Virus record (IMG/VR): IMGVR_UViG_3300037847_004028
Location: 1 to 50,392 of that record
DNA: 50,392 bases
From: a virus
Reading direction: 5' to 3' (one strand)
Positions 5,723-28,592 of this stretch are shown piece by piece (the stretch's first letter is position 1; each line of letters starts with the position of its first letter). The notes under the pieces were generated by a model. It worked only from the letters and a program-made list of their open reading frames with translations. It was not told the DNA's origin and made no database searches. Position numbers and translations under genes: made by a program.

Positions 5723-6103
5723 ATGGAATATAAAGACATAGCACAAAAAGGTATTTACAAAGCAAAAAGAAGTATTAATAATGCTGAAAGAATTATTAAA
5801 GAAAAAGAACGTAAAGAAAAAAACTTAGAGGATATCAATGCTTTTTTATCATTAAAAAGATTAGAAAATGAAAATTTAAAAGATTTTGAAACTAGACTAA
5901 ATGATATAAAAGCAGATGCAAGTTTTGATAAACTGTTTGAAGATAAAAGTACTAGGTCTGCATATAAAGATGGATTTTTATCTACTAAAGAAGGTTTACA
6001 AATAAAAATAGAAGACATTGAAAAAATACGTCAATTTAGAAAAATGAGTACAAATCCCGTTGTAAAAGAAATAACACAATTATTGTTAAAGGAAGGAAAT
6101 TGA
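5723..6103 (+). CDS. 126-residue coiled-coil protein
   Basis: The product is almost wholly charged and helical (for example NNAERIIKEKERKEKNLEDI), with heptad-like spacing over its length and no membrane segment. It sits first in the row of helical proteins that leads to the giant polymerase-like protein, a position held by ejection or internal virion proteins in podoviruses. A GGAAGG ribosome site precedes the ATG by 5 bases. No family recognised. Confidence 0.65.
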   Translation: MEYKDIAQKGIYKAKRSINNAERIIKEKERKEKNLEDINAFLSLKRLENENLKDFETRLNDIKADASFDKLFEDKSTRSAYKDGFLSTKEGLQIKIEDIEKIRQFRKMSTNPVVKEITQLLLKEGN

Positions 6104-6105
6104 TT

Positions 6106-6852
6106 ATGGTTGATTTATACGGAAATAACTTAGAAGAAGAGTTAAAAGATATGGGTTCTCCGTTTAAACAAGAAGGTAATGGAGTAACAGGTGATATGAG
6201 AAATCCAAGTAATCGAAAGTATAATTCTTTATTTGATAATTTTGTTAAAGAAGATGGTAGTTTAGATTATGTATCTACAGGATTAGGAGTTGCACAAGCT
6301 GGTTTAATTACATCTCAAATGTTTGATGGTAGTTATGATAAGACAATCAATAATCTTCAAGACGCATTAGGCAATTTGCAAACTGCTAAATCAAATATAA
6401 GCTCACAATTAAATAAAAATTTAACTGAAGCAAGAAGCGATTTAAGCGATTTAAATACATTAACTAGTCTAAATTTAATGCAACAAAATAAATCTCAGTT
6501 TAGACAACTTGATAATGTAAATAGTGATTTTAATATGGGTAGAATAGAATCAATGAAAGATGATTTGCTTTCTAATATTAATAATAGATTAAAAAATCAA
6601 TTTGAGCAAAATCAAATGAAAACAGAAAAAATATTAGAAAAAAATATAAATGATGCTAAATCTAGTATTACAAAAGTAGATGCTAGTATGGATATGATTA
6701 AGGATGAAATATCACAAGTGAAAGAAGCAAAAGATAATAGATTAAGAAATACTCTTACAGATTTAACTGCTCTTGCTTCTACATATTATGATCCAACAGG
6801 AATATCTGCAGGTATAATAAGAAGTACAAAATTTAAAAATAAATATTCATAG
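6106..6852 (+). CDS. 248-residue helical protein, putative ejection/internal virion protein
   Basis: After a short Gly/Asp-rich head, residues about 60-80 are weakly hydrophobic (GLGVAQAGLITSQMF). The rest is a long polar coiled coil with many Asn, Gln and Lys, and the tail ends ALASTYYDPTGISAG. The ATG at 6106 is preferred to the TTG at 6100 because GGAAGG at 6091-6096 then has a 9-base spacing. The shape and its place before the 429- and 2345-residue proteins resemble internal virion proteins such as T7 gp14. The role is inferred from context only. Confidence 0.6.
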   Translation: MVDLYGNNLEEELKDMGSPFKQEGNGVTGDMRNPSNRKYNSLFDNFVKEDGSLDYVSTGLGVAQAGLITSQMFDGSYDKTINNLQDALGNLQTAKSNISSQLNKNLTEARSDLSDLNTLTSLNLMQQNKSQFRQLDNVNSDFNMGRIESMKDDLLSNINNRLKNQFEQNQMKTEKILEKNINDAKSSITKVDASMDMIKDEISQVKEAKDNRLRNTLTDLTALASTYYDPTGISAGIIRSTKFKNKYS

Positions 6853-6860: not shown

Positions 6861-8150
6861 ATGAACCTACAAAATATGATACAAAGACAAGTAGGAATTG
6901 AACAAGCTAAAAAAGAAGCTAATAAAGTAGGAAGCGTAACTGCAAATGACGTTATTAATCTTGCTACAACTAGCGATAGGTTATTAAGAGAATCTATTAA
7001 TACTGCTTTTAAAAATGCTCAAGAATTTCCAACATCAGAAAATTTACAAAAACAAATTGAAGATTTATCTACTTTTAAAGAACAAGCTATGTTACCTGCG
7101 ACTAAGATTGCATTTGATATGGGTATTAAGAATTTGCAAGATTATAAATTGATGCAAGAAACAAGAACTAAGAAAGGAATGGAACTTTTTACTAGTGCTA
7201 GAAATCTTGATACAGATGATTTAGAAAGTATTACTTCTTTAAGAAGAGATACCGATAGTGCATTTGCTAATCAATTAATTGGAAATAAACAATATGAAGC
7301 TATACTTGATATAACAGAACCTAAATATAAAGAAGCAGATAGTAGATTAGATTTCGCTAAAGAGTTTGCAGCAGTACAAAGGTTTGATGAAGTATTTGAA
7401 GAAAGTGGTACTCAAGGGGTAAATGAATTAATCTATAAAACATTTACAGAAACTGAAGACCCAAATACACTTACTAGATTAGCACCTTTTGCTAAAAGTT
7501 ATGTTGAAAGTGTTAATGCTAAAATAGAAGCTTTTCAAGAAAATCAAGAAGATGCACAAGAAATGCAAATGTTTACACTTGCATCACAAGCAAAAGAATT
7601 TTACGAAAATATACAACAACAAACACAAGGTGATACAAAAGGTAATCCTATTGCTGGGCAAGGTCATGCAAACAAATATCGCAGTAATTATGTATTAAAA
7701 AATACAAATAAAGGTTCATTTAATGAAAAATACTTTATGAAAGGTGCTGGTGTAGAATCGTTTAATTTTGATGCTTATTATGATGATGCATTACAGACTA
7801 TGAAAGCTTTGTTTATAATTGATGAAAAATTAAACATAAGTAAAAGTGCTAAAAAGAATTTAGATACTATGATGGACAAATCTAATCCAATGCATTTTGA
7901 TGTTGTTAGAAACATGTTAAATAATGCAATTAAAGAAATTGATGCTATTAAAATAGAAGACCCAAAGGATTTTGCATATGATCCATTAAAAGCAACTTTT
8001 GTAGAACTGGGAAAAGTAATTGATTTATATCAAAATAATAGAAAAGCAATGGGTGGTACGGCTCCTGTACAAACAGATACAGGTTCATCATATATGACTC
8101 CATCTTTTCAAGTTCCTGATTATTTAAATAATACAAGTCCACAAGAATAG
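6861..8150 (+). CDS. 429-residue helical protein, putative ejection protein
   Basis: The protein is soluble, acidic and almost entirely helical, with no signal peptide or membrane segment. Glu/Gln-rich stretches (for example ENQEDAQEMQMF) and a low-complexity Ser/Thr/Pro tail are visible. AGGAG precedes the ATG. It lies 8 bases before the giant gene and is surely co-expressed with it. The set of three helical proteins followed by two giant proteins matches the arrangement of ejection proteins in N4-like, T7-like and crAss-like phages. No conserved motif is recognised. Confidence 0.6.
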   Translation: MNLQNMIQRQVGIEQAKKEANKVGSVTANDVINLATTSDRLLRESINTAFKNAQEFPTSENLQKQIEDLSTFKEQAMLPATKIAFDMGIKNLQDYKLMQETRTKKGMELFTSARNLDTDDLESITSLRRDTDSAFANQLIGNKQYEAILDITEPKYKEADSRLDFAKEFAAVQRFDEVFEESGTQGVNELIYKTFTETEDPNTLTRLAPFAKSYVESVNAKIEAFQENQEDAQEMQMFTLASQAKEFYENIQQQTQGDTKGNPIAGQGHANKYRSNYVLKNTNKGSFNEKYFMKGAGVESFNFDAYYDDALQTMKALFIIDEKLNISKSAKKNLDTMMDKSNPMHFDVVRNMLNNAIKEIDAIKIEDPKDFAYDPLKATFVELGKVIDLYQNNRKAMGGTAPVQTDTGSSYMTPSFQVPDYLNNTSPQE

Positions 8151-8158: not shown

Positions 8159-11100
8159 ATGCCACAGTTAGATGCTATATATAGACGAAAAAATAGATTA
8201 GTAGAACAAGTACCTGGCTCTAGTCAAGAAACGTTAGGTGTAGAAACTGCTGAACCAGAAGTAGATGTTATTCGTTTTGACCCTGACTTAGAGTATGGCT
8301 CAGAAAAAAATAAAATATCAGCGTATAAATCATATTTTGATGCAATAAATATGGTATTAAAAAATGAAAAAATACCTCCTGTAAACTTTAATCACCCTAC
8401 AACATTCTTATTAAATAAGACTGAATCAAGTAAAAACCTTGATATGTATAATGTATATCGTGACCAAATGGAAAAAACACTTCGGTCTAATTTTTTGTGG
8501 AATGATAATGTACCATTAAATAAACAAGAACAAACTATAGATGCATGGACAGATGAAATCTATGGTCTTACTAAACATACACAAAAGTTTTTAAATGGAT
8601 ATGATATATCAGAAGATGGTAAAAAAGCTATTTACGAAATAACTAGAAATCAAATACGTAAAACATCTCCTACTATATTTGCATGGGCTGGAGAAGAATA
8701 TAATCAATTTCAAAATTCTAAAAGAGATGGTCTTATTAAAACTAGTAAACAAGCTGAATCATCATTTTATGAAGGGTTAGGTGCATTAGGGATAGAATCT
8801 GTATTGGGAAGAGATGTAAAACAATATGCTGACCAAATGAGATTAGAAGCTGAAAGTATATCAGAAGCACAAGGATATGGTGCTATGACTACAGGAGAGC
8901 TTTTTGGTATAGGTGGTGTTGAAGGTGTTGCTAAAGGTCTTACTAATATTTTATATAATGCATATCAATCTTTACCATATCAAGTTCCAAGTTTAGCTAC
9001 ATCATTAGTAGCAAGAGGTTTAAGTAGTAATCCTTTTACATTTGGTGCTGGTCTTGGTCTTTCTTTAGGTGCTGGTGGTATTATGGAAACTGGTTCATTT
9101 TTATATGAAACGCAAAAAATGTATCATCAGTTAAAATCACAAGCATTTCGTTCAAGAGAAATACTAATGAATCCTGAACATCCTGATTATAACCCAGAGT
9201 TATTTAGAAAATTATTTTCTATAGAAATGAGTGATGGCAGTCGCAAAGCATTAGACTTGGTAACAGATTTAGAAATACGACAAATGTCTGAGGGATTATC
9301 AAGAGTGTATGGTGGTTTAAGTACTGCAGTTGAAGGTTTAAGTTCTTTTGCAGAAAAAAACATATTTGGCAAAATAGGGTCAGGTATGATAAAAGGAATG
9401 AAAAATAATAATAAATCTGCAGTTAAAGCAGTATTTAAAAGTTATTTTAGAAAACCTTTTGTTTCTACATTTCTTGAAGGCGGTACAGAAGCTACTCAAC
9501 AAGGTATTTCCGAAGCATTAAAATATTATAATGTACCTGAATATTCTATTAGTAAAGGAGCAATAGCAGAATCTTTTGCAATAGGTGCAATTTATGGAGC
9601 AAGTTTTTCAGGAGCTGGTGCATTAGGAAGAAAAGCTGTTGATATGTACTCAAACAAAAGAGGTGATTTTAATCTTTCAGAAGAACAAGCATCTAGGTTA
9701 ACACAAACAGATAAAGAACGTAGCAAAATAAGACCATATGATAATGATATTATTCTTGGTACAAACAATGCAGGGTATATAGAACAAATAGCAAAACAAT
9801 ATGATATATCTGCTGATGAAGTAGTGCAAAGACAAAATGATCTTGGTCAAATGGATAAGCTTACTGCTAAAAATAAAAAGATTATTGCTAATGCTAATCC
9901 ACAAATATTTGAAAAATATGGTTGGACAAATATTTACAAAACTTTTGCAAAACAACAAAAGAAAACAGTTGTACAAAAACAAGGAAAAACAGTAAGTAAA
10001 GTTGCTAAGAAAACTCCTTCTAAAAGAATAAGTGGACAACCCGAAATGAGTCCCGAAGCAATTATTCAACAAGCAATGCAGTTTAACTTTGATGATTTAC
10101 CTAGTGGAATGCCATCGCAAATAGACCCTGATGCTCAAGCTGGATTAGATATTTTTGATAACGGTAATGAAATGAATATTGACCTAGTTATTGAACAAGA
10201 ATTAAGGTCACAAATTGAGTTTACAAAAAAGAATACTACGCTTACAAGCAATGAAAAAAGAGTAAAATTAAAAGAATTACAATCAAAGTTAGATAAAGCT
10301 ACACAGTCTCTTAAACAACCAGCTAAAGTAAAAAAGAAAATAAAAAAGAAAGTTGAAATAAAACAAAAAACTAAAGCAGTTGTCAAAAAAACATTACAAA
10401 AACCTGATACAATAGAAGGACTTAAAAGAAAATTAAATTATATAAAAACAAATTATGTAGATAATGTAAAAGATAAAAACAGCGATAATTATAAAACTGC
10501 ATTACAAACAGTTAATGAATACCAAAAAAGACTAGAACAATTAGAAAGTAAAACAAAAAAGAAACCTGTAAAAAAACAACAATTTAGTTCTTTTGACCAA
10601 CCTTTAGAACTTCCAAAGGATATACAATTTAGTGAAAAACCAACAGATTATAATGCTGTAAAAAAAATAAGACCAAAATCAAAAAGTTTGCTTAAAGATT
10701 TTAAAGATAGTAAGAAAAAATCTTTTGATGCATATATGTCTCTTGCACCTAGAGTTATCACTAAACCTGAACTTCGTAAATCTCCTATAACACAAGACAT
10801 TTTAATATTAGAAAATGGTAAAGCAATAGGTGAAATAAAAGCTAATGAAAATGAAAAAGGACTTAGAACAGAAAGTTTAATTCTAGGAAAGGGTAAAAAT
10901 GCAATTATAGTACCAAATGTTGTTAGTGTAAATAATATTAATACTCAATTAGATAAATATATATCACCAAAACAAACAAATGTACCTGAGTCAGACCCTG
11001 ATAAAATAGCAGATAGTGAAAAAAGAACAGGTAGTATGAAGGATATTCAAGCTCTTCTTGCAAAGAAAAAAGGCACTAGTCAATTAAACATTTTTGATAA

Positions 11101-14100
11101 ACTTAAAGAAGATGCACCTGATATTGTTAAAGGAGCTACTGGTAAACATATTAATGATTTGTTTAATAAAGGCAATACAGATGATTCAGATGTTTTATTA
11201 AGTGAAATAGAAGATATGCCTAGTATAATTCTTACAGGTAAGCGTAAAAGAGAATTTGACATGATGCAGAACAAACTATGGAATGCAACTAAAAGAGGGT
11301 ATGGTTTAACTGAACTTGATTTTCCTGATTATGTAGATGCATTTAAAAGTTATTGGGGTGCTACAGTATTTAAAGATGGATATGATACTTGGTCACAAGA
11401 AAGGTTAGCTAAGAGTCCAACAAAAACAAGTATTGCAAAAACTATTGGTAAAAAAATGCGAAGCATAGGAGATGTGTTTGCAAATGAACAAGACCTAGAT
11501 AGTGAATTTGATGATGCTTATGATAGTGCAATAGAATATATAAGAGAAAACATTGGTGATGTTAATAGTGATTTAGAATTTAATCAATTAAGTGCAAAAG
11601 ACTTTAGTAGAATAGCAAAAAGTCCTTTTGTTGTATATGATTTTAGTGTTGATGTTGAAAAGCTTAGTGAGATACAAGACATTGCATATACACTTATAGA
11701 AGAAAATGAACAAACTGCTTTTAACGATTTGTTAGAAATTATTAGTACTCCTGAGTTTGATCTTGTAACTCCTGATGGTTTAACATTAGCTGAACTTGTA
11801 GAAAGAAACGATAATGCTAGGCAGTTATTTAGAAGGTATTACAATTCTATACATCCTAGTAATACTGGTTCAGTAAATAAAGGTGTAGAAGGTGAGATAA
11901 TCGAATACGAAGCAAGACTTTCTACTGCTTCAAATAGTTTAGAACCTACACTTAGAGATGGTAAGCTAGTATATCCTATCCTTGATTTTAGAGCAACTGG
12001 TGAATCTAGTCTTAATGGTCAAACAAGACCAGAGGTAGGTGTAAAAAGACATTACTTGAGATATGCACAGGATAATGGCTCTGTCTTTGCTATGCTTAAA
12101 AACAAAGATATATATGTAAGTTATAAAGAAAATAAAATATATGGATTCTTAAAAACACCACAGTTAATGAACTTGTATAAATACAAGCTAGTTGATAATA
12201 ATCTCGTACCAATTGCATCTCGTGGTGAAGATGGTAATCTTATTATGGCTGCTATAACAGATAAAGTAAAAAATGCTAGTAAGGATATAGAAACATTTGC
12301 AATAGAAGAAATACAGCCTTATAAAAAATTTATGAATACAAATAAAAGCAAATGGGAAACTGTAAATAATATATTTGGACCCTTGCTAAGTCAAGACAAT
12401 ATGACTACAAAAGAAAGTGAGTATTTTGATTTTGTATTTGATGGTGATTACAATACATATAGACAACATGTAATAGCAAGGCATTATGCATTAAAAGATT
12501 TGTTTGGCTCTGATTATATCTTTATGAAGCCAGAGACTTTAATGAAAAGAATTAAAATACCATTTACTCCTGTGCAAACAAGTCCTTCACTTCCTCCTAG
12601 AAAAGTAATGTTCTTTGATTCTAAAAATGCGACAATAGAATATAAATCTACTCGTGTTGATGGAGATGATAAAATTAAGAAAGTAAAACTGCAACAAGCT
12701 ATAGATGGAGAAATGCAATATATAGGTGATGGTACTACACTTACATCGGGTAATGTGTTTACAGAAACATATCCTGAGCATTTTGGTACTCCTGAAAATG
12801 CAACAAGAGCTAAAACAGTTCATTACTATAAAAGAGGTGAAGATGTTCATATGGCTAAACACCAAGAAATGACATTGTTTTTACCTGAGGGAGAAAGTGC
12901 AGTATTAAAAGTAAATAACGAACCTTATGCTTATTTTGTAAGAGAAGGAAATAATGTAAATATTTATGATATGGAAAATAATCCTATCGATAATCTTATG
13001 TCTAATGATGAAGCTAAAGTAAGAAGTGGTGAATTACTTAAGGATGGAGTAATGCATGAAATAGCTGGTGAGTCTATAGGTATGGTTACATTTACAGATA
13101 GGTATCAAAAGAATACTAGCATATTTAGTGGGCAATTAAGTTATTACTTTGATGATCCAAGATTTCAAGAACTTATAATGGATAAGTTTGAAAATATAAA
13201 TCAAGGTACATTCTCTCCTAAAGCATTAGAAGCTACATTAAGAGCAATCTCTGAAAATGGCGAAAGAATGGATGCAATTATTAAAAACTTTTCTAATCGT
13301 TATGTAGATGTAATACCGCAAAATGTTGAAGAACTAGCAGAATTAGGTGCTGGTAAACATCCAGTAAATAGTGGATTTTTTAAAGAGACAATGAAGAATA
13401 AGTTTTTAAAACCTATGGTAGATTTTAAGATGAAAGGTTCTCACTTAGATTTTCGTGCTGACTACAGAGGATTAGTAAATCAAGACGAAACTATCATCGG
13501 ACCAAACAATGGTTTAATAAAAGAAATTACAAGAATAGCAGAGCTACCTAGTAAAATGAATACTAATGCTAAAATAGATGCAGTTAATGAGTGGCTTAGT
13601 AAAAATAAATTTTACACAATGATTGTAAGGCATCCTGTCGCAAGTAGTGTAGGATTTGGTTTATATAGAATTAAAAAGATTGAACCTTCAATAGGTGATT
13701 CATTTATATTGCATCCTAAAGAAGTTAAAGAGCGTTTTGAAGGTGACCATGACCATGACAGAGGACATTTAGTATGGCTTGACCAAGAGTTTTATAATCA
13801 ACTTAAACCACATGAAGTCCCTACTAGTGGATTAGGATTAAGTCAATTTAAAAAGTTTGATGAAGAAAGTACCTTAGAAAACCTTAGTGGTACAGCAGAG
13901 ATGATTGAAAGAATGACTTATGGTCAAACTGCTATTGGAGAAGTAGTGAACATTACTAGATATGCAGGTGCATTAAATGCAATGTTTGGTAAGGATGGTT
14001 TTATGCAATATACAGTTAACGGTAAAGTAATTAAACTCAAACCAAGACCATTTAATATGCAAGTAATGGATAATGATATTGTTTATAAAGATGGTAGAAG

Positions 14101-15196
14101 GTGGAAAGGTAAAGTAAAAGACCTTTTAAGATTATATCTGCAAGCAGCAGTTGACCACCCTAAAGTATTATTACTTGATAGATGGAATTATAGTAGAGAT
14201 AAATTAATTAACTATTTGTTCTATGACCCAGCATCTCCAAATGCTCCTTTAAACGCTACATTAGTCGAGTTTCTTAAAAAAGGTATATTGGATATACTTA
14301 ATATAAATGGACAAGTAGATAATCATCGTGTCTCTGGTGGTAAGTCTGTAAAGTTTGATGAATTGTTAAATAAAAGTGAAGAATACAATGAATTTGTTAA
14401 TGATAGAGCAGAGTATTTAAGAAATGACTTATTAAGAAAAGAAGAAGCATATTATGATAATGTAAATAGTAACATTGAATCTGCAACACGATCACAGGAT
14501 ATGGTTTTATTTGGTGAAGCAAAGTTTGCAAAAAACAGTAATCAACCTATGAGTTTACAAGAAAAGATTACAATCAAATATGCAGAAATGTTAGATAAAA
14601 TACCTGGTAAGCGTAATAGATTTTTTAACACACCTCGTGAATTAAGTCTGCCTGTACATAGAACTGCAGTTTACAATATATACCCTGAATTGTTTGAGCA
14701 AATTACAGAAATGGCTGGAGATGTAGATGCATTACCTCAAGAGGGAATAACGTATGCAAGTAATATTTCTAATAGCTTAACTAAACTATATGAGTCTAAA
14801 AAAAATAAAAACGAAACTGGTAGTACAATAAGTTTTATAGAAAGACTTACTCCTAAAACATGGGATTACAATAAACAATTTGTTGAGTTTTATAAGTTTT
14901 GGTCTAAAAAATATGAAGCATTATCTCCACTAGATAGAAAGTTAGCTACAATACAATATTTATTTGGAACTGTTGGTGGTAATAAAAGAGTACTAAAACA
15001 AGATTTAAATACATTACCTCCTATAAAACGTAAAGGCGGTACAACATTAGACCCAGAAATAATGGCAATATATTTTAAAGAATATAATAGTTTATTAAAC
15101 AAATTTGAAAAAGATACTAGCATATTGACTGAGCTTAGAAAATCACCAAAGATGTCAATGGCTGAATTAAGAAAGGACTTAGGTTGTGGCAAGTAA
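8159..15196 (+). CDS. Giant virion-type single-chain RNA polymerase with two-barrel (QDE-1/gp66-like) catalytic core
   Basis: The 2345-residue protein has motifs of double-psi beta-barrel RNA polymerases in family order. Barrel A: DGTTLTS (1524-1530), then K1558 and K1567. Barrel B: RADYRG (1766-1771, compare RVDYSG of bacterial beta-prime), R-H-P (1824-1826, compare NRAP/RNP), then DHDHD (1863-1867) followed by RGHLVWLD, matching the DLDGD-YFV-WD pattern of RDR enzymes. AVDHPK (1997-2002) matches the RDR motif AVDFPK about 130 residues downstream. The first about 1000 residues look like a delivery region: Gly-rich hydrophobic stretches (about 240-490) and Lys-rich linkers (600-624, 721-745). 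Size and place among ejection proteins match crAss-like gp66 (about 2180 residues). Likely role: injected polymerase for early genes. The glycine usual before the third Asp is His here. Activity is inferred. Confidence 0.8.
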   Translation: MPQLDAIYRRKNRLVEQVPGSSQETLGVETAEPEVDVIRFDPDLEYGSEKNKISAYKSYFDAINMVLKNEKIPPVNFNHPTTFLLNKTESSKNLDMYNVYRDQMEKTLRSNFLWNDNVPLNKQEQTIDAWTDEIYGLTKHTQKFLNGYDISEDGKKAIYEITRNQIRKTSPTIFAWAGEEYNQFQNSKRDGLIKTSKQAESSFYEGLGALGIESVLGRDVKQYADQMRLEAESISEAQGYGAMTTGELFGIGGVEGVAKGLTNILYNAYQSLPYQVPSLATSLVARGLSSNPFTFGAGLGLSLGAGGIMETGSFLYETQKMYHQLKSQAFRSREILMNPEHPDYNPELFRKLFSIEMSDGSRKALDLVTDLEIRQMSEGLSRVYGGLSTAVEGLSSFAEKNIFGKIGSGMIKGMKNNNKSAVKAVFKSYFRKPFVSTFLEGGTEATQQGISEALKYYNVPEYSISKGAIAESFAIGAIYGASFSGAGALGRKAVDMYSNKRGDFNLSEEQASRLTQTDKERSKIRPYDNDIILGTNNAGYIEQIAKQYDISADEVVQRQNDLGQMDKLTAKNKKIIANANPQIFEKYGWTNIYKTFAKQQKKTVVQKQGKTVSKVAKKTPSKRISGQPEMSPEAIIQQAMQFNFDDLPSGMPSQIDPDAQAGLDIFDNGNEMNIDLVIEQELRSQIEFTKKNTTLTSNEKRVKLKELQSKLDKATQSLKQPAKVKKKIKKKVEIKQKTKAVVKKTLQKPDTIEGLKRKLNYIKTNYVDNVKDKNSDNYKTALQTVNEYQKRLEQLESKTKKKPVKKQQFSSFDQPLELPKDIQFSEKPTDYNAVKKIRPKSKSLLKDFKDSKKKSFDAYMSLAPRVITKPELRKSPITQDILILENGKAIGEIKANENEKGLRTESLILGKGKNAIIVPNVVSVNNINTQLDKYISPKQTNVPESDPDKIADSEKRTGSMKDIQALLAKKKGTSQLNIFDKLKEDAPDIVKGATGKHINDLFNKGNTDDSDVLLSEIEDMPSIILTGKRKREFDMMQNKLWNATKRGYGLTELDFPDYVDAFKSYWGATVFKDGYDTWSQERLAKSPTKTSIAKTIGKKMRSIGDVFANEQDLDSEFDDAYDSAIEYIRENIGDVNSDLEFNQLSAKDFSRIAKSPFVVYDFSVDVEKLSEIQDIAYTLIEENEQTAFNDLLEIISTPEFDLVTPDGLTLAELVERNDNARQLFRRYYNSIHPSNTGSVNKGVEGEIIEYEARLSTASNSLEPTLRDGKLVYPILDFRATGESSLNGQTRPEVGVKRHYLRYAQDNGSVFAMLKNKDIYVSYKENKIYGFLKTPQLMNLYKYKLVDNNLVPIASRGEDGNLIMAAITDKVKNASKDIETFAIEEIQPYKKFMNTNKSKWETVNNIFGPLLSQDNMTTKESEYFDFVFDGDYNTYRQHVIARHYALKDLFGSDYIFMKPETLMKRIKIPFTPVQTSPSLPPRKVMFFDSKNATIEYKSTRVDGDDKIKKVKLQQAIDGEMQYIGDGTTLTSGNVFTETYPEHFGTPENATRAKTVHYYKRGEDVHMAKHQEMTLFLPEGESAVLKVNNEPYAYFVREGNNVNIYDMENNPIDNLMSNDEAKVRSGELLKDGVMHEIAGESIGMVTFTDRYQKNTSIFSGQLSYYFDDPRFQELIMDKFENINQGTFSPKALEATLRAISENGERMDAIIKNFSNRYVDVIPQNVEELAELGAGKHPVNSGFFKETMKNKFLKPMVDFKMKGSHLDFRADYRGLVNQDETIIGPNNGLIKEITRIAELPSKMNTNAKIDAVNEWLSKNKFYTMIVRHPVASSVGFGLYRIKKIEPSIGDSFILHPKEVKERFEGDHDHDRGHLVWLDQEFYNQLKPHEVPTSGLGLSQFKKFDEESTLENLSGTAEMIERMTYGQTAIGEVVNITRYAGALNAMFGKDGFMQYTVNGKVIKLKPRPFNMQVMDNDIVYKDGRRWKGKVKDLLRLYLQAAVDHPKVLLLDRWNYSRDKLINYLFYDPASPNAPLNATLVEFLKKGILDILNINGQVDNHRVSGGKSVKFDELLNKSEEYNEFVNDRAEYLRNDLLRKEEAYYDNVNSNIESATRSQDMVLFGEAKFAKNSNQPMSLQEKITIKYAEMLDKIPGKRNRFFNTPRELSLPVHRTAVYNIYPELFEQITEMAGDVDALPQEGITYASNISNSLTKLYESKKNKNETGSTISFIERLTPKTWDYNKQFVEFYKFWSKKYEALSPLDRKLATIQYLFGTVGGNKRVLKQDLNTLPPIKRKGGTTLDPEIMAIYFKEYNSLLNKFEKDTSILTELRKSPKMSMAELRKDLGCGK

Positions 15197-18100
15197 TAAA
15201 TGTAGCGATTTAGAACAAGATGATGTACTGGTAGCAGATTTACATAATGCCTCTAATTTAGAAAGTGAACTAAATAAGAAACAATTGTATGACCCTGATG
15301 TTTTACCTGTATTTAAAAAAATAGATCAATCTATTAAAAATACAATAGACAGAATGAAAAAATACTCAGGTGAGTATGACCCTTCTAAGTTTACGTTTAA
15401 TGAAAAGTATCTAAGAAAACTAATTAAAAGAAGAGAAGCAACAACAGACCAAGTAGAAAAACAAACTATTATAACTGCATTACAATCACAAGCAGATGCT
15501 GACCCAGGTTTTTTAGAAGCATTAAAAGAAAGTGCATATGAAATAACTAAGACAGAACAATACAAAGAGCAAAGAAAATACAAAGAAGCTAAAGTAGACC
15601 CTGTTACAAAGTTACCTAATTTTTATACACTTAGTTTACAAACGCTTAGAGTATTGTATCACGACTTAGCACCTTTAATGGATGTAAATGAAAATGGAGA
15701 TGTGCTTGGTAGGTTAGGTTCAAACATTGCATATGAGTTTGCATTACCTAAAACAATATTTAAAAGAGCAAAAGACACAGAAATATTTAAATACAAACAA
15801 GCATTGTATGATTATCGTAATGAAATGAATAGAAGGGTTTCTAGTTACTCTGGTCCGATAGACGTTCCTTCCAGTCAAGAAAGAGAAAGAGTACACCCTG
15901 ACACAGATATTCCTGTTATAGATAATATAAGAAGAAGTAAGGCAGGCTATGCTGATATACTTGACAATATAAATACAACAGTAAATGCATATCTAAAAGC
16001 TAGGGGCATGGTAGGAGATGGTAGTGATCAAGTACATGAATTAATTACAGATTTAATGCATGGCAGAGCGTTTATAAGGATGGATAAAAAAGGATTTGGT
16101 AAAGTATATCGATATGAAAACTGGGTTCCTACTGAAAGAAGATATAAAGAAAGTGGAGATAGAATATTTAGATGGAAAGGGAAAGAGTTTAACGAACAAC
16201 AACTTGAAAAATATAATAAACAATATGGTAATAAGTTTGATTTTACTGAATATGTAGTGCCTTATCAGTTTGGTAATAGACCACAAATAGATTTTGGTGC
16301 AGAAATGAAAAACGGAATGTCTATGGCTAATTCTGTAGACTCGTTATTAGAGCATTTAGACATTATATATAGGGAAGGTTTTGATGATGTAAAGACTGAC
16401 CTTACAAACGTAATAGAAGAAATGAATACTACTTTAAATGAATACAAGAAAAAAGGAATACAGATGCCACCTGAATTATTTCAGGAACTTGTTACAGATA
16501 AAGTAAATCAAGAAGAATTTTTAGATTTATTAAATAAAGATATATCTAATAGGAATGAAGAAAGAAATGAAAGACTAGTTGCTGGACAAAGAATGCAAGC
16601 TGTAGGAAAAGTACAAAAAAGAAAACAACATGCATTAGAAGATGGTACAATAATTATAGCAAGAGATTATAAAAGGTATTATCCTAAGATGTATTTTAGT
16701 GCAGATGTAGGTGAAGGAATTAATCAAGCTTTAATAAATATAGATAGTGAATTATTAGCATTACAAAATGCAATGGTAATTGACCCTGACCTTATTGATG
16801 AAAATACAGCAGCAAACTTAGATAAAGATTCTGATAGATTCAATGAACTAGTAAAAGGTAAAGCACATTTAGAACAAGCTTTAGTAAGATACTTAGATTT
16901 AAATGGGCAAACGTTAAAAGAAGATGAAGTAGCAGAGTTAATGACTCCATTTGAAAAGCATTTTAAACCTGTTACTAATTTTTTACCTTATGATTTAGTA
17001 AGAAAAGATAAAAGCGTAACTCCTGATTATTTTAATAGAATATCTAAAACAGTTGTTAAAGCACAATTGTTATCAAAGTTATTATCTGCTTATGGCAGGA
17101 TACAGAAACCAAGCTTTCAAAACTATTTAGTTAATAGATATAGGATTGCATGGAATAGTCCTAAATCAGAAGGTAGTTTTTTAGGAACAAGATTTGACAT
17201 GCCTTCATTAGCTAAAAAATTACATGTAAGTGAAGATGGCATTGTAAACCTATTAAATAAAATGAGGTCAATACAAACTTTTCAAGTATTAGGAGGGTGG
17301 TCTTCGGGATTTGGTCAGCTTACATCTATGGCTAACAAAATGATGGAACTTGGATATGATGCAACTATAACTGCATATCAAGATTCTCAGCTAACAGAAA
17401 ACAAAGCATTGATTGTAAAGAGTGGTATACTATCATTTGAAGATATGGTTGAAACGCATCTTCTTATGGAAGGTAATAGTGCTGAAGTAAAAAGAGTACA
17501 AGAACTTAAAAAGAAATATAAACAAGAATTAGAATCAGGAAAGATTCAAGGATTCGCTAAAGCGTTGTTAAGAACGTTAGAAAAAAATAATTCTGCTTGG
17601 GCTGAAGTACCAAGATCACTGGCAAACTATGCAATTACTGGAGAGTTTCCTATATATAGTACTGATAGTAAAACAGTAAAGAATGCTAAGTTTGTAGCAA
17701 ACTTTAGAAAATACGTTAGTATGTCATTAACAGAAAAAATACTTCGTAGTACATCTTTTATGATGGGTGTTAATTGGAGTATTGAATCTGGATATGCACA
17801 AAGTAAAGATGACCCAGTAGCTACAGAGTTTGGTAAACGTTTTGTACAAGAAATGGATTTTACACTTGGCAATGAAGGTGTAGGAGATTCTTTTGGTAAT
17901 TCATTAATGCAATGGTTTAATCAAGTAAGGGTTTGGAGTACACAAAGAATGGCTTATGGCAAAGATGCATACAAACGAGCATGGTTATCTGAGTATGCAG
18001 TAGACCCTGATCAAAGTAAAATTACTAGAAGTGCAAAAGCATCTATAAAATTTGCTAATGCATTAATGTTGGAAGCTAGTGGAAATGGTCTTACTGTTGC

Positions 18101-18824
18101 TAGTACGTTAGGAGGGGCGGCAGTTGCAGGTTCATTACTTGCTGGATATAGTGGCGTACTTGGTCCAATAGGAGCATTAGCTGGAGGTGTTGCAGGGTAT
18201 GGAACATCTTATTTAAGTAAAAAGATAACAAATCCTATAACGCATTTAGAAGAACGAAGAAAAGCTTTGCGTTTAACAAACCCTAGTACTTCTAAGGCTA
18301 GTCAAATGCTATTATTTCATGGTGCAACATCAGCATTATATGATTTTGTATTATACAATTTTGATTTTAGTTATGCTAAAGAAGGTGCATTAGCATCAGG
18401 TGTGTTAAAGTTTACTAGAAGATTTGCAGGTAATCAATCGTTTACAAGGCTTGGTAGTGGGTTTACTTCACCATTAATGAGAAGCACAATGATGAGTATG
18501 CACTTATTATATAAAGCTCTTAATGAAGAAGAAGATGTAGAAGCTTTAGATTTTGTTAAGTTGTTTGGAAGTTTCGCAGGGGTAGGATATATGCAATTTG
18601 CATATTTACTTATGGATGCATTTTATGATGAGCAGTCATTAGCAAAACATAAAAATAAAAATGCTCGTAATGGTATACGTCAATTTATTAGATTAAATAC
18701 ACCTAATATAGTTCCAAGCGAATTACTGGGTTCATTTGGTGCAGATTTTTTTGACATTACTGAAGCTGGTGCAAAAGTATTTGATGATATAAATAGATAT
18801 GGAATGGGATTAGGTAAAAAATAA
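15186..18824 (+). CDS. 1212-residue virion protein with Gly-rich membrane segment, putative ejection partner
   Basis: The gene starts with GTG inside the end of the polymerase gene (11-base overlap) behind AAGGA with an 8-base gap, so the two are co-translated. Most of the protein is charged and helical. A long Gly/Ala-rich hydrophobic stretch near residues 965-1010 (VAGSLLAGYSGVLGPIGALA) could insert into a membrane, as expected for a channel-forming ejection protein. The C-terminal 150 residues contain more amphipathic helices. I recognise no enzyme motif. It probably forms the trans-envelope conduit or anchors the polymerase in the capsid; this is inference from position and composition. 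Confidence 0.6.
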   Translation: MASNKCSDLEQDDVLVADLHNASNLESELNKKQLYDPDVLPVFKKIDQSIKNTIDRMKKYSGEYDPSKFTFNEKYLRKLIKRREATTDQVEKQTIITALQSQADADPGFLEALKESAYEITKTEQYKEQRKYKEAKVDPVTKLPNFYTLSLQTLRVLYHDLAPLMDVNENGDVLGRLGSNIAYEFALPKTIFKRAKDTEIFKYKQALYDYRNEMNRRVSSYSGPIDVPSSQERERVHPDTDIPVIDNIRRSKAGYADILDNINTTVNAYLKARGMVGDGSDQVHELITDLMHGRAFIRMDKKGFGKVYRYENWVPTERRYKESGDRIFRWKGKEFNEQQLEKYNKQYGNKFDFTEYVVPYQFGNRPQIDFGAEMKNGMSMANSVDSLLEHLDIIYREGFDDVKTDLTNVIEEMNTTLNEYKKKGIQMPPELFQELVTDKVNQEEFLDLLNKDISNRNEERNERLVAGQRMQAVGKVQKRKQHALEDGTIIIARDYKRYYPKMYFSADVGEGINQALINIDSELLALQNAMVIDPDLIDENTAANLDKDSDRFNELVKGKAHLEQALVRYLDLNGQTLKEDEVAELMTPFEKHFKPVTNFLPYDLVRKDKSVTPDYFNRISKTVVKAQLLSKLLSAYGRIQKPSFQNYLVNRYRIAWNSPKSEGSFLGTRFDMPSLAKKLHVSEDGIVNLLNKMRSIQTFQVLGGWSSGFGQLTSMANKMMELGYDATITAYQDSQLTENKALIVKSGILSFEDMVETHLLMEGNSAEVKRVQELKKKYKQELESGKIQGFAKALLRTLEKNNSAWAEVPRSLANYAITGEFPIYSTDSKTVKNAKFVANFRKYVSMSLTEKILRSTSFMMGVNWSIESGYAQSKDDPVATEFGKRFVQEMDFTLGNEGVGDSFGNSLMQWFNQVRVWSTQRMAYGKDAYKRAWLSEYAVDPDQSKITRSAKASIKFANALMLEASGNGLTVASTLGGAAVAGSLLAGYSGVLGPIGALAGGVAGYGTSYLSKKITNPITHLEERRKALRLTNPSTSKASQMLLFHGATSALYDFVLYNFDFSYAKEGALASGVLKFTRRFAGNQSFTRLGSGFTSPLMRSTMMSMHLLYKALNEEEDVEALDFVKLFGSFAGVGYMQFAYLLMDAFYDEQSLAKHKNKNARNGIRQFIRLNTPNIVPSELLGSFGADFFDITEAGAKVFDDINRYGMGLGKK

Positions 18825-18860: not shown

Positions 18861-18890
18861 GCACTCACTTATGTGTGTGTTGCTTAAACA
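18861..18890. other. Intergenic repeat motif copy 1 (ATGTGTGTG) in a small hairpin
   Basis: ATGTGTGTG lies at 18871-18879 followed by TTGC. CACTCAC (18862-18868) can pair with GTGTGTG (18873-18879) with one mismatch. Read on the minus strand the element is AAGCAACACACACATAA, almost the same as the copy at 21901-21912 (AAGCAACACACAAATAA). It lies in the gap between converging gene blocks. The function is unknown. Confidence 0.5.
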
Positions 18891-19037: not shown

Positions 19038-19217
19038 TTATATAGTATTTTCATCTACTTTTTTTAAAATATGATAAGGAAGTACTTCTCTTATCTCAGG
19101 TATTAATTCATTATCAGGATAATTAACTGTTAACCAATGTAATATTGTTGCCATTATTTCTTCGTATTTAGCGTTTTTTGCGATTTCTTTTGCGACTTGC
19201 TCCATTGACATTGTCAT
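19038..19217 (-). CDS. 59-residue hypothetical protein at the end of the leftward block
   Basis: AAGGAG lies 7 bases before the ATG at 19217. The frame overlaps the 3' end of the resolvase gene by 50 bases. The product (start MTMSMEQVAKEIAKNAKYEE) looks like a compact helical protein with a central ILHWLTVNYP segment and no membrane anchor. It is the last gene of the leftward block. No family recognised; the strong ribosome site and good codon structure support it. Confidence 0.65.
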   Translation of the reverse strand: MTMSMEQVAKEIAKNAKYEEIMATILHWLTVNYPDNELIPEIREVLPYHILKKVDENTI

Positions 19218-19530
19218 TGTTTAACTCCTTTACTTTTATATAACGTTCTAGCCACGAATCAAAAGGTTCTACTACATAAGGTATTCCTCTATCTTCTTTT
19301 ATAACTTGTATGTCTACTTCTTCAGATGGTATCATCCATTGTGCAATCTTTTTACGACATTTAGCTTGTACTTTAATTACTTTATCTATTAATAAATCAA
19401 CTTCTTCATGCCAGCCCAATGATTGACCATTACTACCCCATGCTCTTTGACATTCTAAACCCATATCTTTTGTCATATCTCTTAATAAATATTCAAAGCG
19501 ATTACCTTTTGCTTTTGATTTGTTTGCCAT
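19168..19530 (-). CDS. Hjc-like Holliday junction resolvase / PD-(D/E)XK nuclease
   Basis: The 120-residue product shows the resolvase pattern: KGNRFEYLL (first acidic residue), GSNG, then EEVDLLI and KVQAKCRKK, giving E...D...QxK, the PD-(D/E)XK active site of archaeal Hjc and related phage enzymes. It would cut branched DNA produced by replication and recombination before packaging. The start at 19530 is preferred to an upstream in-frame start because GGAGAG precedes it. The C-terminus is very basic (RKRNRKKR), useful for DNA binding. Alternative: another small restriction-like nuclease. Confidence 0.65.
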   Translation of the reverse strand: MANKSKAKGNRFEYLLRDMTKDMGLECQRAWGSNGQSLGWHEEVDLLIDKVIKVQAKCRKKIAQWMIPSEEVDIQVIKEDRGIPYVVEPFDSWLERYIKVKELNNDNVNGASRKRNRKKR

Positions 19531-19648
19531 GATCTCTCCAATCCTCAAATATATTTATACTTAAAACAAATAACACACTACCTATACCAATACATAATAT
19601 GCTAAAAGACATAATTACTATGTTGATTATCCATTCTGCTAATATCAT
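19502..19648 (-). CDS. 48-residue single-pass membrane protein
   Basis: A frame starting at 19648 follows an AAGGAG site and encodes MILAEWIINIVIMSFSILC..., one long hydrophobic helix (about residues 5-33) and a short basic tail. It overlaps the resolvase start by 29 bases. The upstream structured element at 19671-19731 contains CTCCTT on this strand, which could pair with this gene's AAGGAG. The function is unknown; a small inner-membrane effector is plausible. Confidence 0.6.
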   Translation of the reverse strand: MILAEWIINIVIMSFSILCIGIGSVLFVLSINIFEDWRDHGKQIKSKR

Positions 19649-19670
19649 TTTATACTCCTTATTTAAACAT

Positions 19671-19731
19671 GCGAAGGGTCAAACTGGCGAGACTAAAACC
19701 AGACCAAGGAGGAGGAATCCTGACCCCTCGC
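19671..19731 (-). ncRNA. GC-rich structured leader element with anti-Shine-Dalgarno loop
   Basis: GCGAAGGGTCA (19671-19681) and TGACCCCTCGC (19721-19731) form an 11-bp stem with one A-C mismatch on + that becomes a G-U pair on the minus strand, so the RNA is probably leftward. Inside, CTGG/CCAG (19684-19687, 19699-19702) form a second hairpin. The remaining single strand reads CCTCCTCCTT on the minus strand. The element is about 57% GC in an AT-rich genome. It lies 7 bases past one stop codon and ahead of the 48-residue membrane protein, whose AAGGAG could be masked by CTCCTT. Regulatory role inferred. Confidence 0.55.
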
Positions 19732-19738
19732 TGTTATG

Positions 19739-19954
19739 TTATTTACATTTAGGACATGGTTGTTTCTTTTTTCCATAAGTAGGAAAATCATGTAAGTATA
19801 TTATTTTATGAGTGCCTCTTAGATATTCTTTTGTCTCTATACTTTCCCAGCATTGATTGCAAGATTTACAGTAGTTTATATTTCTATCTGCTCTTCTTGC
19901 ATCAGCTTTCCAACCATGTCTTTTTAATGCAAGTGCTTGTTTATACTTAATCAT
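19739..19954 (-). CDS. 71-residue zinc-ribbon protein
   Basis: Two cysteine pairs (CKSCNQC in the middle and CPKCK at the C-terminus) can form one zinc ribbon; the N-terminal third is basic (LALKRHGWKADARRADRN). It overlaps the helicase gene end by 8 bases and is likely co-translated. A DNA- or RNA-binding accessory to replication is plausible. No family is recognised. Confidence 0.65.
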   Translation of the reverse strand: MIKYKQALALKRHGWKADARRADRNINYCKSCNQCWESIETKEYLRGTHKIIYLHDFPTYGKKKQPCPKCK

Positions 19955-21335
19955 TTAATATATCAAACAATCTTTCTCCTGTTTTTTCTACAGGAAAAGC
20001 TTCAGGAATTATGACTTCAGTTTTGTTATGACGCACTATCATGTTTTCATGAAACTGACATTTATTACCATTAAATCCCATTGTTATCATACCACCTGTG
20101 CCATAACGCACCTTTGCAGCAACAATCTGATTTTGTTCGGGACCAAGTTCTGAATCAGCATATTTATCTTTGTATTCATAGTATACAAAAAGAATATTCT
20201 CAGCAACTTGCTCAATGCTACCACCTTCAGATAAATCAGACATTTTTGGTACTTTGTCAATACGAGCTTCAATGTTACGATTGAGCTGACTTACAAGAAT
20301 AGGTATGCAGTTATATCTTTTTGCAGTTTCTTTATAAGAACGCATGATTTCCTCAATTTCAAAACGTCTGCCTTCATTCTGTGATTTAACACGAATTAGT
20401 TGTATGTAATCATCAAGAATAATATCTGGTTTATATTTACTTATTACTGCATTACTATCATTAAGAGTGAATAGTTTGTCAAACATAAACAATTGGTCTT
20501 TGTATTGTTTAAAGTTTTTCATAGCAACATTCAAATGATTTATTGTTTTCTCATCCATATTCCTACCACCCATACGAATATTAGAGTAGTATAATTCTTT
20601 ATGAGAAAGAACAAGTAATTTCTTCATCATTTCTTTGTTATTCATCTCACGATTAATCATCATTACTTTCAAACCTTGTTGAAGTAGATTGTAGCATAGA
20701 TTAACAACAAGTGTTGTTTTGCCATGACCAGGTCTGCCACCAATCACAGTGATCTCACCACGAGTCATACCACCAGCCATTTTATTAAGACTATCAAAAC
20801 CATATTTAACAAGATTAACAGATTCATAAATACTATCTTCTGTTTCTGAAATAAGGTCTTCAAGGTCAAACTCTTGTCCTGTAGTTATACTTTGAAACTC
20901 TGAACTAACTTTATTTACATCATCTACAAGAGCATTAAATTCTTTATTATCTTTGAATGCATTGTCTTGTATCTTCATTGTAGACTTAATTAGTTTACGT
21001 TTGAGACTTTTTTCTGCAACGATTCTAGCATAATCTTTCATCTGATGATTCATACCTGTTTCAAGTAAACCAGTAAGAAAGTATGCATTAATATCATATT
21101 TCTTTTTGTCATTCTCAGTAAGAGATGCCATAATAGTAATAGGGTTTATTTCGCTTTCTTTCTTTTCTAGTTCTGCAATCTTTTGATAGATTCTTCTATT
21201 AGTCTCATTATAAAACATCCTTGAGTTTGTAATGTATTTTTTACATTCTTCTAAGGTTGTGTTGTCATTCATAATAATACCTAGTACTGCTTCTTCAGCT
21301 TCTAGGCTTTGTGGCATAAGTTGTAAATCACTCAT
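19947..21335 (-). CDS. dnaB: Replicative DNA helicase, DnaB family
   Basis: The 462-residue protein starts with a DnaB N-terminal domain (SLEAEEAVLGIIMND). It has Walker A GGRPGHGKTTL near residue 200, a Walker B-like DIILDDYIQLI, and the SQLNRNIE...DLSEGGSIEQVAENILF block typical of RecA-fold hexameric helicases. It unwinds DNA ahead of the replication fork. No primase domain or DNA polymerase gene was seen in the window, so host enzymes must supply them. It overlaps its neighbours by 8 bases on each side. Confidence 0.92.
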   Translation of the reverse strand: MSDLQLMPQSLEAEEAVLGIIMNDNTTLEECKKYITNSRMFYNETNRRIYQKIAELEKKESEINPITIMASLTENDKKKYDINAYFLTGLLETGMNHQMKDYARIVAEKSLKRKLIKSTMKIQDNAFKDNKEFNALVDDVNKVSSEFQSITTGQEFDLEDLISETEDSIYESVNLVKYGFDSLNKMAGGMTRGEITVIGGRPGHGKTTLVVNLCYNLLQQGLKVMMINREMNNKEMMKKLLVLSHKELYYSNIRMGGRNMDEKTINHLNVAMKNFKQYKDQLFMFDKLFTLNDSNAVISKYKPDIILDDYIQLIRVKSQNEGRRFEIEEIMRSYKETAKRYNCIPILVSQLNRNIEARIDKVPKMSDLSEGGSIEQVAENILFVYYEYKDKYADSELGPEQNQIVAAKVRYGTGGMITMGFNGNKCQFHENMIVRHNKTEVIIPEAFPVEKTGERLFDILND

Positions 21336-21546
21336 TTATTTTCCTCACATTTGTTTCTGCACCGATTCTAGTTTTTTCTTTTTTAACTGTAGGTTCTCCA
21401 TTTGCATCGAACCCTTTAGCATTATCAAGCATTACAAGACAACCAAACTCACTTTTAGTCAGAAGTGTGCCTGTAGTATCTTGTCCTTCAATGACAAACT
21501 TGTCACCTTCAACAAGGTCAGCTAGATACAGTGTTTTTTTCTTCAA
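21328..21546 (-). CDS. 72-residue hypothetical protein
   Basis: Translation probably starts at TTG (21546), with AGAGG about 8 bases upstream inside the preceding gene. The product looks like a small beta-barrel (LVEGDKFVIEGQDTTGTLLTKSEFGCLV), reminiscent of OB/SH3-like folds, with a basic C-terminus. It lies directly before the helicase gene and overlaps it by 8 bases, so a replication accessory role is possible. Not recognised. Confidence 0.55.
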   Translation of the reverse strand: MKKKTLYLADLVEGDKFVIEGQDTTGTLLTKSEFGCLVMLDNAKGFDANGEPTVKKEKTRIGAETNVRKINE

Positions 21547-21715
21547 TTAAATCACCTCTTATTTTTGTTAGGTCTTTTAATAATTTTTCAAAAGCATTTC
21601 TATAGTTTATATTATTAAATAGCCTTGAACTTGATATCCCTAACTGTAAAGCGATGATAAGCCAATTAATTTCAGATATATTAAATCTGATATTTGCGTT
21701 TGCTTCTTTACTCAT
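21518..21715 (-). CDS. 65-residue hypothetical helical protein
   Basis: The first gene of the helicase group, starting at 21715 downstream of a long structured gap. The product is a small helical protein with a moderately hydrophobic middle (INWLIIALQLGISSSRLF) and a charged C-terminus. The ribosome site is weak. On the minus strand TATAAT lies just upstream of the ATG region (about 21740), which may be a promoter -10 box. No family recognised. Confidence 0.55.
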   Translation of the reverse strand: MSKEANANIRFNISEINWLIIALQLGISSSRLFNNINYRNAFEKLLKDLTKIRGDLIEEKNTVSS

Positions 21716-21733
21716 AGTCTACTTTCTATAAAC

Positions 21734-21885
21734 AAACGACCATTATAGATTGTTATAATGACGCCAACCATTTATTAACACAATAGCAGTCCTGTATACC
21801 ACATACTAAAGGACACATTTATCAGCCTCCGATGACTTTTTTAAAAATCGTTTGTCAAAAGAGACAGACAATCAAATGGTCGTTT
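21734..21885 (-). ncRNA. Long inverted-repeat element upstream of helicase group
   Basis: AAACGACCATT plus GATTGT at 21734-21753 pair with ACAATC plus AATGGTCGTTT at 21868-21885: 17 base pairs with a small internal loop, enclosing 114 bases. Inside, GTCCT/AGGAC (21789-21793, 21810-21814) form a hairpin. The gap contains no coding frame. It may be a structured 5' leader, a replication-origin-like site or an operator. Strand is assumed from the flanking genes. Confidence 0.45.
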
Positions 21886-21900
21886 ATTTATTTTTTATTA

Positions 21901-21945
21901 TTTGTGTGTTGCTTTCGAGTGGAGTCCAAATCCACGTTTCGAAAG
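21901..21945 (-). terminator. 3' hairpin of DUF932 gene with adjacent repeat motif copy 2
   Basis: CTTTCGA-GTGGA (21912-21923) pairs with TCCAC...TCGAAAG (21931-21945) around the loop GTCCAAA, starting 10 bases past the stop codon of the 298-residue gene. Directly beyond lies TTTGTGTGTTGC (21901-21912), a divergent copy of the ATGTGTGTG motif. There is no clear U-tract, so this may be a terminator, a processing site or a stability hairpin. Confidence 0.5.
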
Positions 21946-21955
21946 GGTTACTAAT

Positions 21956-22852
21956 TTAGCCAAATAACATATTATATGCACGAAGTTTCAGCATGTTACC
22001 ACTACCAAACATTGCATAACCATTAGCTTTTCTTGTTTCAGAACTGCCATGATCTACAAGGTCTGTTACTGCATTAAACATACGCCAGTTACCATGTTCT
22101 ATTTCAGTATATTTCTCATAAGAATCCTCTAGTTTTTCTACAAGATTTATACCTCTAGTGCTATACATAGGAGGAGTCCATGTTGTTTGCTTTATACCAT
22201 TACTATCTGTTTTAGTAATAGGTCTTGGCTTTTCTTCTAATCTCCATAGTTTAGTACCAAACTCATGCGGTGATTTGTAGCTTCGTACAAGTGCTTTTTC
22301 TTTGATTGCATAAGTGTTTAGCCTTTGTATGTTAGCTATTTCACGAATGTTATCAGCAAATGCTTTAACTCTATCTTCACCAGACATTGTATGTTTTACG
22401 CTTAATGCAGTTCTAGCATTTTTATCTCTATTAGCAGCAGTCCATGTATTTGAACACCATATGCGAATCATACCAGCAAAAAGCTTAAATGCAAGTCCAC
22501 CATTATGTGAGTTTGCAAGAGTTACATAACCTTTTACATCACCTTGTTTATCGCCAGGGATAATATCTTCTACAAACTCATTGTTCTCCATTTGAACAAA
22601 TACTTCAGCTCCGTTCTTAAATGAACCAGCTTTCGTTACGACACAACCATATTCTTGTTCAAGTCTATCAACTGTATTCATAAAACTTGTATTAGTAATT
22701 GGAAAGTATCTTTTTGATGCGACATGTAAAGTTTCTTTCGTATCATCTCTAAATATCTCATGATAGTTTGATATTATTTTACCTCCAGCATCATATATTG
22801 GAGCTGTTTTTACATCCCAATCAAATGGGTAGTCTTCTGTTGGTTTAAACAT
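21956..22852 (-). CDS. DUF932 family protein
   Basis: The 298-residue product has the look of the phage/plasmid DUF932 family: an N-terminal YFPITNTSFMNTVDRLE block, then a GYVTLANSHNGGLAFKLFAGMIRIWCSNTW core and helical C-terminal half. Members of the family occur in many phages and plasmids near recombination and replication genes; their biochemical role is not established. It sits in the leftward block, is preceded by GAGAGGAAAA, and is followed by a hairpin that may end the transcript. Confidence 0.7.
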   Translation of the reverse strand: MFKPTEDYPFDWDVKTAPIYDAGGKIISNYHEIFRDDTKETLHVASKRYFPITNTSFMNTVDRLEQEYGCVVTKAGSFKNGAEVFVQMENNEFVEDIIPGDKQGDVKGYVTLANSHNGGLAFKLFAGMIRIWCSNTWTAANRDKNARTALSVKHTMSGEDRVKAFADNIREIANIQRLNTYAIKEKALVRSYKSPHEFGTKLWRLEEKPRPITKTDSNGIKQTTWTPPMYSTRGINLVEKLEDSYEKYTEIEHGNWRMFNAVTDLVDHGSSETRKANGYAMFGSGNMLKLRAYNMLFG

Positions 22853-22854
22853 AG

Positions 22855-23034: not shown

Positions 23035-23050
23035 GTGTTGCCTCCTTTTA

Positions 23051-23634: not shown

Positions 23635-23650
23635 ATTTACCTTTCTAATA

Positions 23651-23748: not shown

Positions 23749-23762
23749 CATTTGTTATCTAT

Positions 23763-26203: not shown

Positions 26204-26279
26204 AGCGTTCCTTTTCGTGATTTTTTGTTTGTTAAATATTACTAATAATTTACTCTAAATCCTAGTATTATTACACATA

Positions 26280-26321: not shown

Positions 26322-26331
26322 GTGGGGATGC

Positions 26332-28431: not shown

Positions 28432-28469
28432 TTGTTTTCTCCTTACGTTTGTTTATTGCTTAATTCTTA

Positions 28470-28575: not shown

Positions 28576-28592
28576 TGTCGCGACTAATAAAA

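Follow-up and report, generated by a model that had tools for sequence, protein, structure and literature searches.

A giant gene in a run of structural-type genes

The window, i.e., the whole stretch of DNA analyzed here, is a 50,392-base IMG/VR virus record from a phage known only from metagenomes. An exact 98-base repeat lies at both of its ends (positions 2 to 99 and 50295 to 50392), so the genome is probably complete and circular or circularly permuted. On the plus strand, an intact open reading frame (ORF) runs from the ATG at 8159 to the stop at 15196 and encodes a protein of 2,345 amino acids (aa); this long ORF is also intact in relatives. We divided the protein into an N-terminal half (residues 1 to 1234; 8159 to 11860), which is predicted with low confidence to be mostly helical, and a putative RNA polymerase (RNAP) half (residues 1235 to 2345; 11861 to 15193).

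The gene follows those encoding an endolysin, a phosphoesterase, and a 1,119-aa protein of large structural size, and it lies in a structural-type run on the plus strand, between genes for a 250-aa protein (6100 to 6852) and a 429-aa protein (6861 to 8150, directly upstream) on one side and an overlapping gene for a 1,212-aa protein (15186 to 18824) on the other. Judged by position, these three are candidate ejection proteins, with homologues in five, four, and nine related loci, respectively. Neither the 429-aa nor the 1,212-aa protein matched a known family, and hydropathy placed a hydrophobic, glycine-rich segment at residues 968 to 986 of the latter. A leftward block on the minus strand (19168 to 29606) encodes a nuclease, a DnaB helicase, a DUF932 protein, an SSB-like protein, a Cas4-like exonuclease, and a ParB-like protein, and is presumed to be early, a timing that is inferred.

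No phage-specific promoter was identified in the window. Sigma-70-like promoters in the leftward region were as frequent as expected by chance (76 found versus 74.5 expected), and the search for a phage-promoter motif gave only a weak CAACACACA element that is unconvincing as a promoter. Three exact CAACACACA copies were found on the minus strand (18874 to 18882, 21903 to 21911, and 28737 to 28745; 0.64 expected, and 0 of 100 shuffles reached three), all intergenic and on the leftward strand. Two of them come immediately after a hairpin-like stretch that lies behind a leftward gene, an arrangement also seen in contig G002, and the element might serve the phage polymerase as a terminator or processing site.

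Two other features of the window were observed. On the minus strand, 28460 to 28880 is a gap without a long ORF, where 311 nt fold with −92.6 kcal/mol (z = −3.07 against shuffles). The gap had no Rfam match; a 306-base stretch of it is 96% identical in G006, and in G002 both sides of a missing segment of approximately 100 nt are conserved. It could conceivably be a structured phage RNA. A 2,221-aa repetitive protein (42978 to 49643) ends in a Peptidase_S74 chaperone domain and is probably a tail fiber.

Conservation of putative catalytic residues

Searches of Pfam, PHROG, PDB sequences, and phages (tblastn) with the single 2,345-aa sequence gave no match, and no copy of the protein was found in the bacterial and archaeal genomes searched. 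Profile searches of the PDB (profiles A2 and A5) returned chance matches only, and no significant sequence or profile match connected the window protein to solved polymerases or to Pfam polymerase families. Iterated searches of IMG/VR identified the polymerase gene on the nearly identical contig L001 and on twelve others, down to L029. Over the whole length, the protein of L002, which is full-length, was 90% identical to the window protein and the others were 21 to 42% identical; that of L029 was approximately 20 to 26% identical to the other homologues.

We aligned 22 sequences, namely, the window protein, 12 homologues (approximately 20 to 90% identical), and 9 more distant ones. D1524, K1552, K1567, R1824, P1826, D1863, D1865, and D1867 were kept across all of them, and S1530 in 21 of the 22. 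D1524, S1530, K1552 (codon 12812 to 12814), and K1567 (12857 to 12859) belong to a predicted lysine-side barrel region (residues 1505 to 1580; 12671 to 12898; limits approximate). A predicted aspartate-side barrel (residues 1757 to 1874; 13427 to 13780) contains R1824-x-P1826 and the G-D-x-D-x-D metal loop, whose DHDHD (13745 to 13759), with the invariant D1863, D1865, and D1867, is the predicted Mg2+ site. Further downstream, a C-terminal motif, QAAVDHPK (residues 1995 to 2002; 14141 to 14164), has Q1995, A1996, and D1999 invariant in the near family.

A first-pass annotation, made from sequence alone, had pointed to DGTTLTS (1524 to 1530), RADYRG (1766 to 1771), RHP (1824 to 1826), DHDHD (1863 to 1867) followed by VWLD, and AVDHPK (1997 to 2002) as polymerase motifs, and all of these strings are present at those residues. 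The alignment supports some of them only in part. The annotation had paired K1567 with K1558, but only K1567 is conserved, and its invariant partner is K1552. Around RADYRG, good conservation is limited to DFR(A) (1764 to 1767) and to the near family. The R and P of RHP are kept but the middle residue is not, and AVDHPK reduces mainly to QA...D (1995, 1996, and 1999), which is missing in the most distant subgroup.

Bare DxDxD counts were rejected as evidence for a polymerase because chance occurrences are common; up to four such strings occur per relative. A single DxDxD position, within E-[GA]-D-x-D-x-D, is common to all 22 sequences, and its conservation in register, together with the other invariant residues, is beyond chance. 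In the window protein, the metal loop is FEGDHDHD; in L018 it is FEGDGDGDK and in L029 YEADGDGDK, with EGDGDGD and EADGDGD among the further forms and LEGD-x-DGDEVxVE in those relatives that most resemble RDRs. The textbook form of the motif appears in relatives as EADGDGDKASITFL, LEGDGDGDEVHVELL, and others. The bacterial beta-prime subunit reads NADFDGDQMAVH, a resemblance that is a lead rather than a test.

These data bear on the possibility that the polymerase fold persists in a noncatalytic protein that serves in ejection or as a scaffold. The sequence is very divergent, and odd metal-loop variants such as DADYDFD occur in the most distant relatives, which would fit such a protein. However, few residues are better conserved in the 22 sequences, some of them less than 25% identical, than the three aspartates and the two lysines, and we regard a noncatalytic protein as very unlikely.

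Predicted fold of the two halves

An AlphaFold2 model of residues 1235 to 2345, built from 13 sequences, had a pLDDT of 76 and a pTM of 0.69. In this model, neighboring predicted strands (model residues 318 to 325 and 328 to 335) carry K1552 and K1567, and the aspartate-side barrel is made of strands 523 to 533, 543 to 546, 585 to 589, 599 to 607, 614 to 617, and 634 to 640. A 35-residue helix (residues 1909 to 1943, model residues 675 to 709; 13883 to 13987) carrying G-x-x-A-I-G-E is a candidate bridge helix, a role inferred from its position.

All nine Foldseek matches in the PDB with an E value below 0.001 were two-barrel RNAPs. The best was the virion RNAP gp66 of phi14:2 (6vr4; E = 1.1e-9), followed by QDE-1 (3e-7), maize RDR2 (2.3e-6), P74-26 gp62 (3.5e-5), and P23-45-type gp64 (1.8e-4), with the phiKZ, AR9, and cellular RNAPs ranking lower (E > 0.001). 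Among viral models, the best matches were unnamed proteins (E = 3e-48), followed by many crAss-like polymerases, a phi14:2 structural protein, and P23-45 A7XX94. The TM-scores were modest (0.2 to 0.4), so the fold class is supported but not a close relation. The root mean square deviations were large, as is expected for multidomain proteins, but the superposition is not precise.

It is therefore the model that predicts, and makes likely, a single-chain two-barrel RNAP fold for residues 1235 to 2345; the barrels and the active-site geometry were not seen in coordinates. Three features of such enzymes were met, namely, a fold similar to those of QDE-1, gp66, and gp64 (by the model and Foldseek, without inspection of the barrels), a conserved DxDxD on one barrel, and two conserved lysines on the other (K1552 and K1567; 22 sequences).

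The model of residues 1 to 1180 was mostly helical, with a pLDDT of 55 and a pTM of 0.32. It had no structural match in the PDB, and the N-terminal half did not match known ejection proteins. Its probable role as an ejection or assembly part is inferred, with only a low-confidence model behind it.

A polymerase family in a large uncultivated phage group

As a marker of the phage group, we used the terminase large subunit (33100 to 34647, plus strand; phrog_38), which is encoded by all 13 polymerase contigs at approximately 62 to 100% identity; the major capsid protein of the window is also found in 11 of the 13. IMG/VR contains more than 590 relatives of this terminase, a lower bound, and the terminase is less than 29% identical to those of the best-ranked isolated or named phage records. 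In the terminase gene of one relative (G007:C1:28024-29706; a 573-aa frame), residues 286 and 296 flank an in-frame insertion that is possibly intein-like.

Thirteen long contigs were chosen by their terminase, not by the polymerase, and then checked for the polymerase. The polymerase profile matched in six of them, with E values of 2e-78 to 2e-208. Three more (G019, G020, and G023) have a 2,874- to 2,908-aa ORF with FEGDYDID and were joined to the core family by profile-profile alignment (probability 94%, E = 1.2e-7; reversed control, 0.5). G024 and G025 have giant ORFs with DxDxD. Profile-profile alignment connects G025 with the FEGDYDID group (probability 77%, E = 2e-5); the link of G024 is not secure. 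The incomplete contigs G022 and G026 gave no polymerase match, nor did profile A5 find any in 18 more terminase relatives, most of which are short fragments around the terminase.

No sequence link to the crAss-type polymerases was secure. Hmmsearch found no match between the polymerase family and the Crassvirales RNAP, and hhalign against a nine-sequence crAss-type profile reached P = 0.05 at best for the whole family, with only the distant relative G025 reaching P = 0.0012; profile-level homology to the gp66 sequence family was thus not met. Nor does the window phage have a crassvirus terminase, portal, or major capsid protein: its own belong to phrog_38, phrog_156, and phrog_1328, those of phi14:2 to phrog_6681, phrog_6547, and phrog_11589. 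Shine-Dalgarno-like sites precede 24 of 33 window genes versus 4 of 37 in phi14:2 (approximately 6 to 8% by chance), and no crassvirus hallmarks were found in the window phage. Assignment to the crassviruses by gene order (endolysin, phosphoesterase, large structural gene, and polymerase, as in phi14:2) was rejected, as no structural-protein homology was detected. Given the other PHROG families and the Shine-Dalgarno sites, the phage is not a crassvirus, and, in the absence of a profile link, we regard its polymerase as a separate family within a large uncultivated podovirus-like group. Two claims of the first-pass annotation are thereby supported: that the polymerase is of the QDE-1/gp66 type, by the predicted fold (including the favorable, though only predicted, result for two double-psi beta-barrels, with gp66, QDE-1, and RDR2 as the best solved matches) and by the conserved residues; and that the lineage may be separate from crAss, by profiles, head and packaging PHROGs, and Shine-Dalgarno sites. 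Separately, a 4,401-aa structural protein of Flavobacterium phage Fpv1 (KU599877.1, 34368 to 47573), which is not classed in Crassvirales, shows similarity to crAss-type polymerases.

The Pfam RdRP family (PF05183) matched the relative G016 over a stretch ending at DGDGD, with an E value of 1.8e-5 for the genome and 0.0049 in hmmscan. At 16 to 18 bits, this is below the gathering cut-off of 23.8. G016 was the only one of 42 viral records tested to be picked up; nine of the 42 were phage records with gp66-type polymerases, none of which matched. The window protein did not match PF05183 either and is not a member at the gathering cut-off. A bolder reading, which we consider unlikely, is that no phage polymerases are closer to the eukaryotic RNA-silencing enzymes than those of this group, which would also form a graded series bridging RDR-like and crAss-like enzymes (LEGDxDGDEV, EADGDGDK, FEGDHDHD, FEGDYDID, and QRDFDTD).

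A putative virion RNA polymerase

Taken as a whole, the observations are likely best explained by a packaged, injected DNA-dependent two-barrel RNAP that makes the first transcripts. The analysis shows the ORF and how it is conserved, a predicted fold with predicted catalytic residues, and the gene neighborhood; activity, packaging, injection, template, and targets are inferred. In this view, the 2,345-aa protein would be a DNA-dependent RNAP with both double-psi barrels in one chain, D1863, D1865, and D1867 on one barrel would form the Mg2+ site, and K1552 and K1567 would lie on the other. The polymerase, joined to the long helical N-terminal half, would be made late with the structural proteins, packaged, and released from the virion with the neighboring ejection proteins and the DNA. 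It may then make the first phage transcripts, most likely those of the leftward replication block, before or without the host RNAP. No other RNAP was recognized among the window proteins scanned.

Because the polymerase gene is in the position of injected proteins, the phage probably delivers a polymerase of its own to the host. Packaging, ejection, and transcription of the first genes are proposed because of this position and the analogy to N4, gp66, and P23-45; the first-pass annotation's claims of injection and leftward early transcription have no other basis. Virion status is likewise an inference that gene position alone supports, as there is no virion proteomics.

Alternatively, the protein may be an active two-barrel RNAP that is not in the virion but is made during infection for later genes, like P23-45 gp64 or YonO. 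The fold also matches the nonvirion P74-26 gp62 and P23-45 gp64, and packaging is unproven. However, the gp62 and gp64 chains are approximately 600 aa, and gp64 is undetectable in virions (PMC10770324), whereas the window protein has 2,345 aa with a predicted helical half of 1,200 residues, and its gene lies in the structural block, with the same neighborhood in near relatives. We consider this alternative unlikely. Another possibility is that, instead of transcribing early genes in general, the protein mainly primes or melts DNA at replication. The scanned window proteins include a DnaB-type helicase and an SSB-like protein, but none was recognized as a primase or DNA polymerase, and in N4 the virion RNAP takes part in replication. 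However, priming is compatible with transcription and no structural feature favors it, so that we find this very unlikely as the main function. A virion RNAP making early transcripts remains our preferred reading.

Comparison with known two-barrel and virion polymerases

Single-chain two-barrel RNAPs of phages have been described in crAss-like phages, P23-45-type phages, and SP-beta (YonO), with those in virions documented in crAss-like phages and P23-45-type Thermus phages. The window's group was undescribed in the literature searched, although one survey (PMC10770324) lists further two-barrel families in its supplementary data and an earlier mention is not excluded. If our reading is true, another phage group, without a sequence link to those, uses a two-barrel virion RNAP; its hosts use Shine-Dalgarno sites, and it is common, judging by its terminase relatives. 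Published comparisons have been structure based, since outside the DxDxD region the sequences are too dissimilar (PMC10770324). The group offers a large and diverse set of natural variants, including classical DGD motif forms, that would help to relate two-barrel enzymes among themselves and with the eukaryotic polymerases of RNA silencing.

The closest counterpart is phi14:2 gp66, which is carried in the virion and enters the cell to transcribe early genes (PMC7886860), and whose neighbors are among the virion proteins detected by mass spectrometry. It is the best PDB fold match of the window model and shares with the window protein a giant single chain (2,180 versus 2,345 aa) and a DxDxD; both are encoded downstream of endolysin and metallophosphoesterase genes, amid large structural genes. 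In contrast, no sequence or profile similarity is detectable, except weakly for G025, and Crassvirales genomes are approximately 100 kb, whereas that of the window is 50 kb with strong Shine-Dalgarno sites.

QDE-1, which uses K743, K767, and D1007/D1009/D1011 (PMC1750930), has the same order of a lysine pair and then DxDxD, and QDE-1 and the eukaryotic RDRs (7y7q and 7w82; PF05183), the second and fourth fold matches, likewise have the lysine barrel before the aspartate barrel. They differ from the window protein in that the latter is a phage protein with a long N-terminal half and is presumably DNA templated. P23-45 gp96, a virion RNAP, is a two-barrel RNAP fused to the tape measure (PMC10770324), so both proteins join such an RNAP to a long virion-type part. 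However, the RNAP of gp96 is N-terminal in a 5,002-aa tape measure of a long-tailed phage, whereas that of the window is C-terminal in 2,345 aa, in a phage with a P22-like portal type. P23-45 gp64 and its homologue gp62, both fold matches of the window model, are nonvirion RNAPs. The polymerase fold of N4 gp50 is T7-like and has no relation to the two-barrel one. In N4, the adjoining genes 50 to 52 encode the injected polymerase together with two ejection proteins (PMC12633501), and by analogy the window would have the same kind of operon, in which a giant polymerase that is injected is joined by two smaller ejection proteins.
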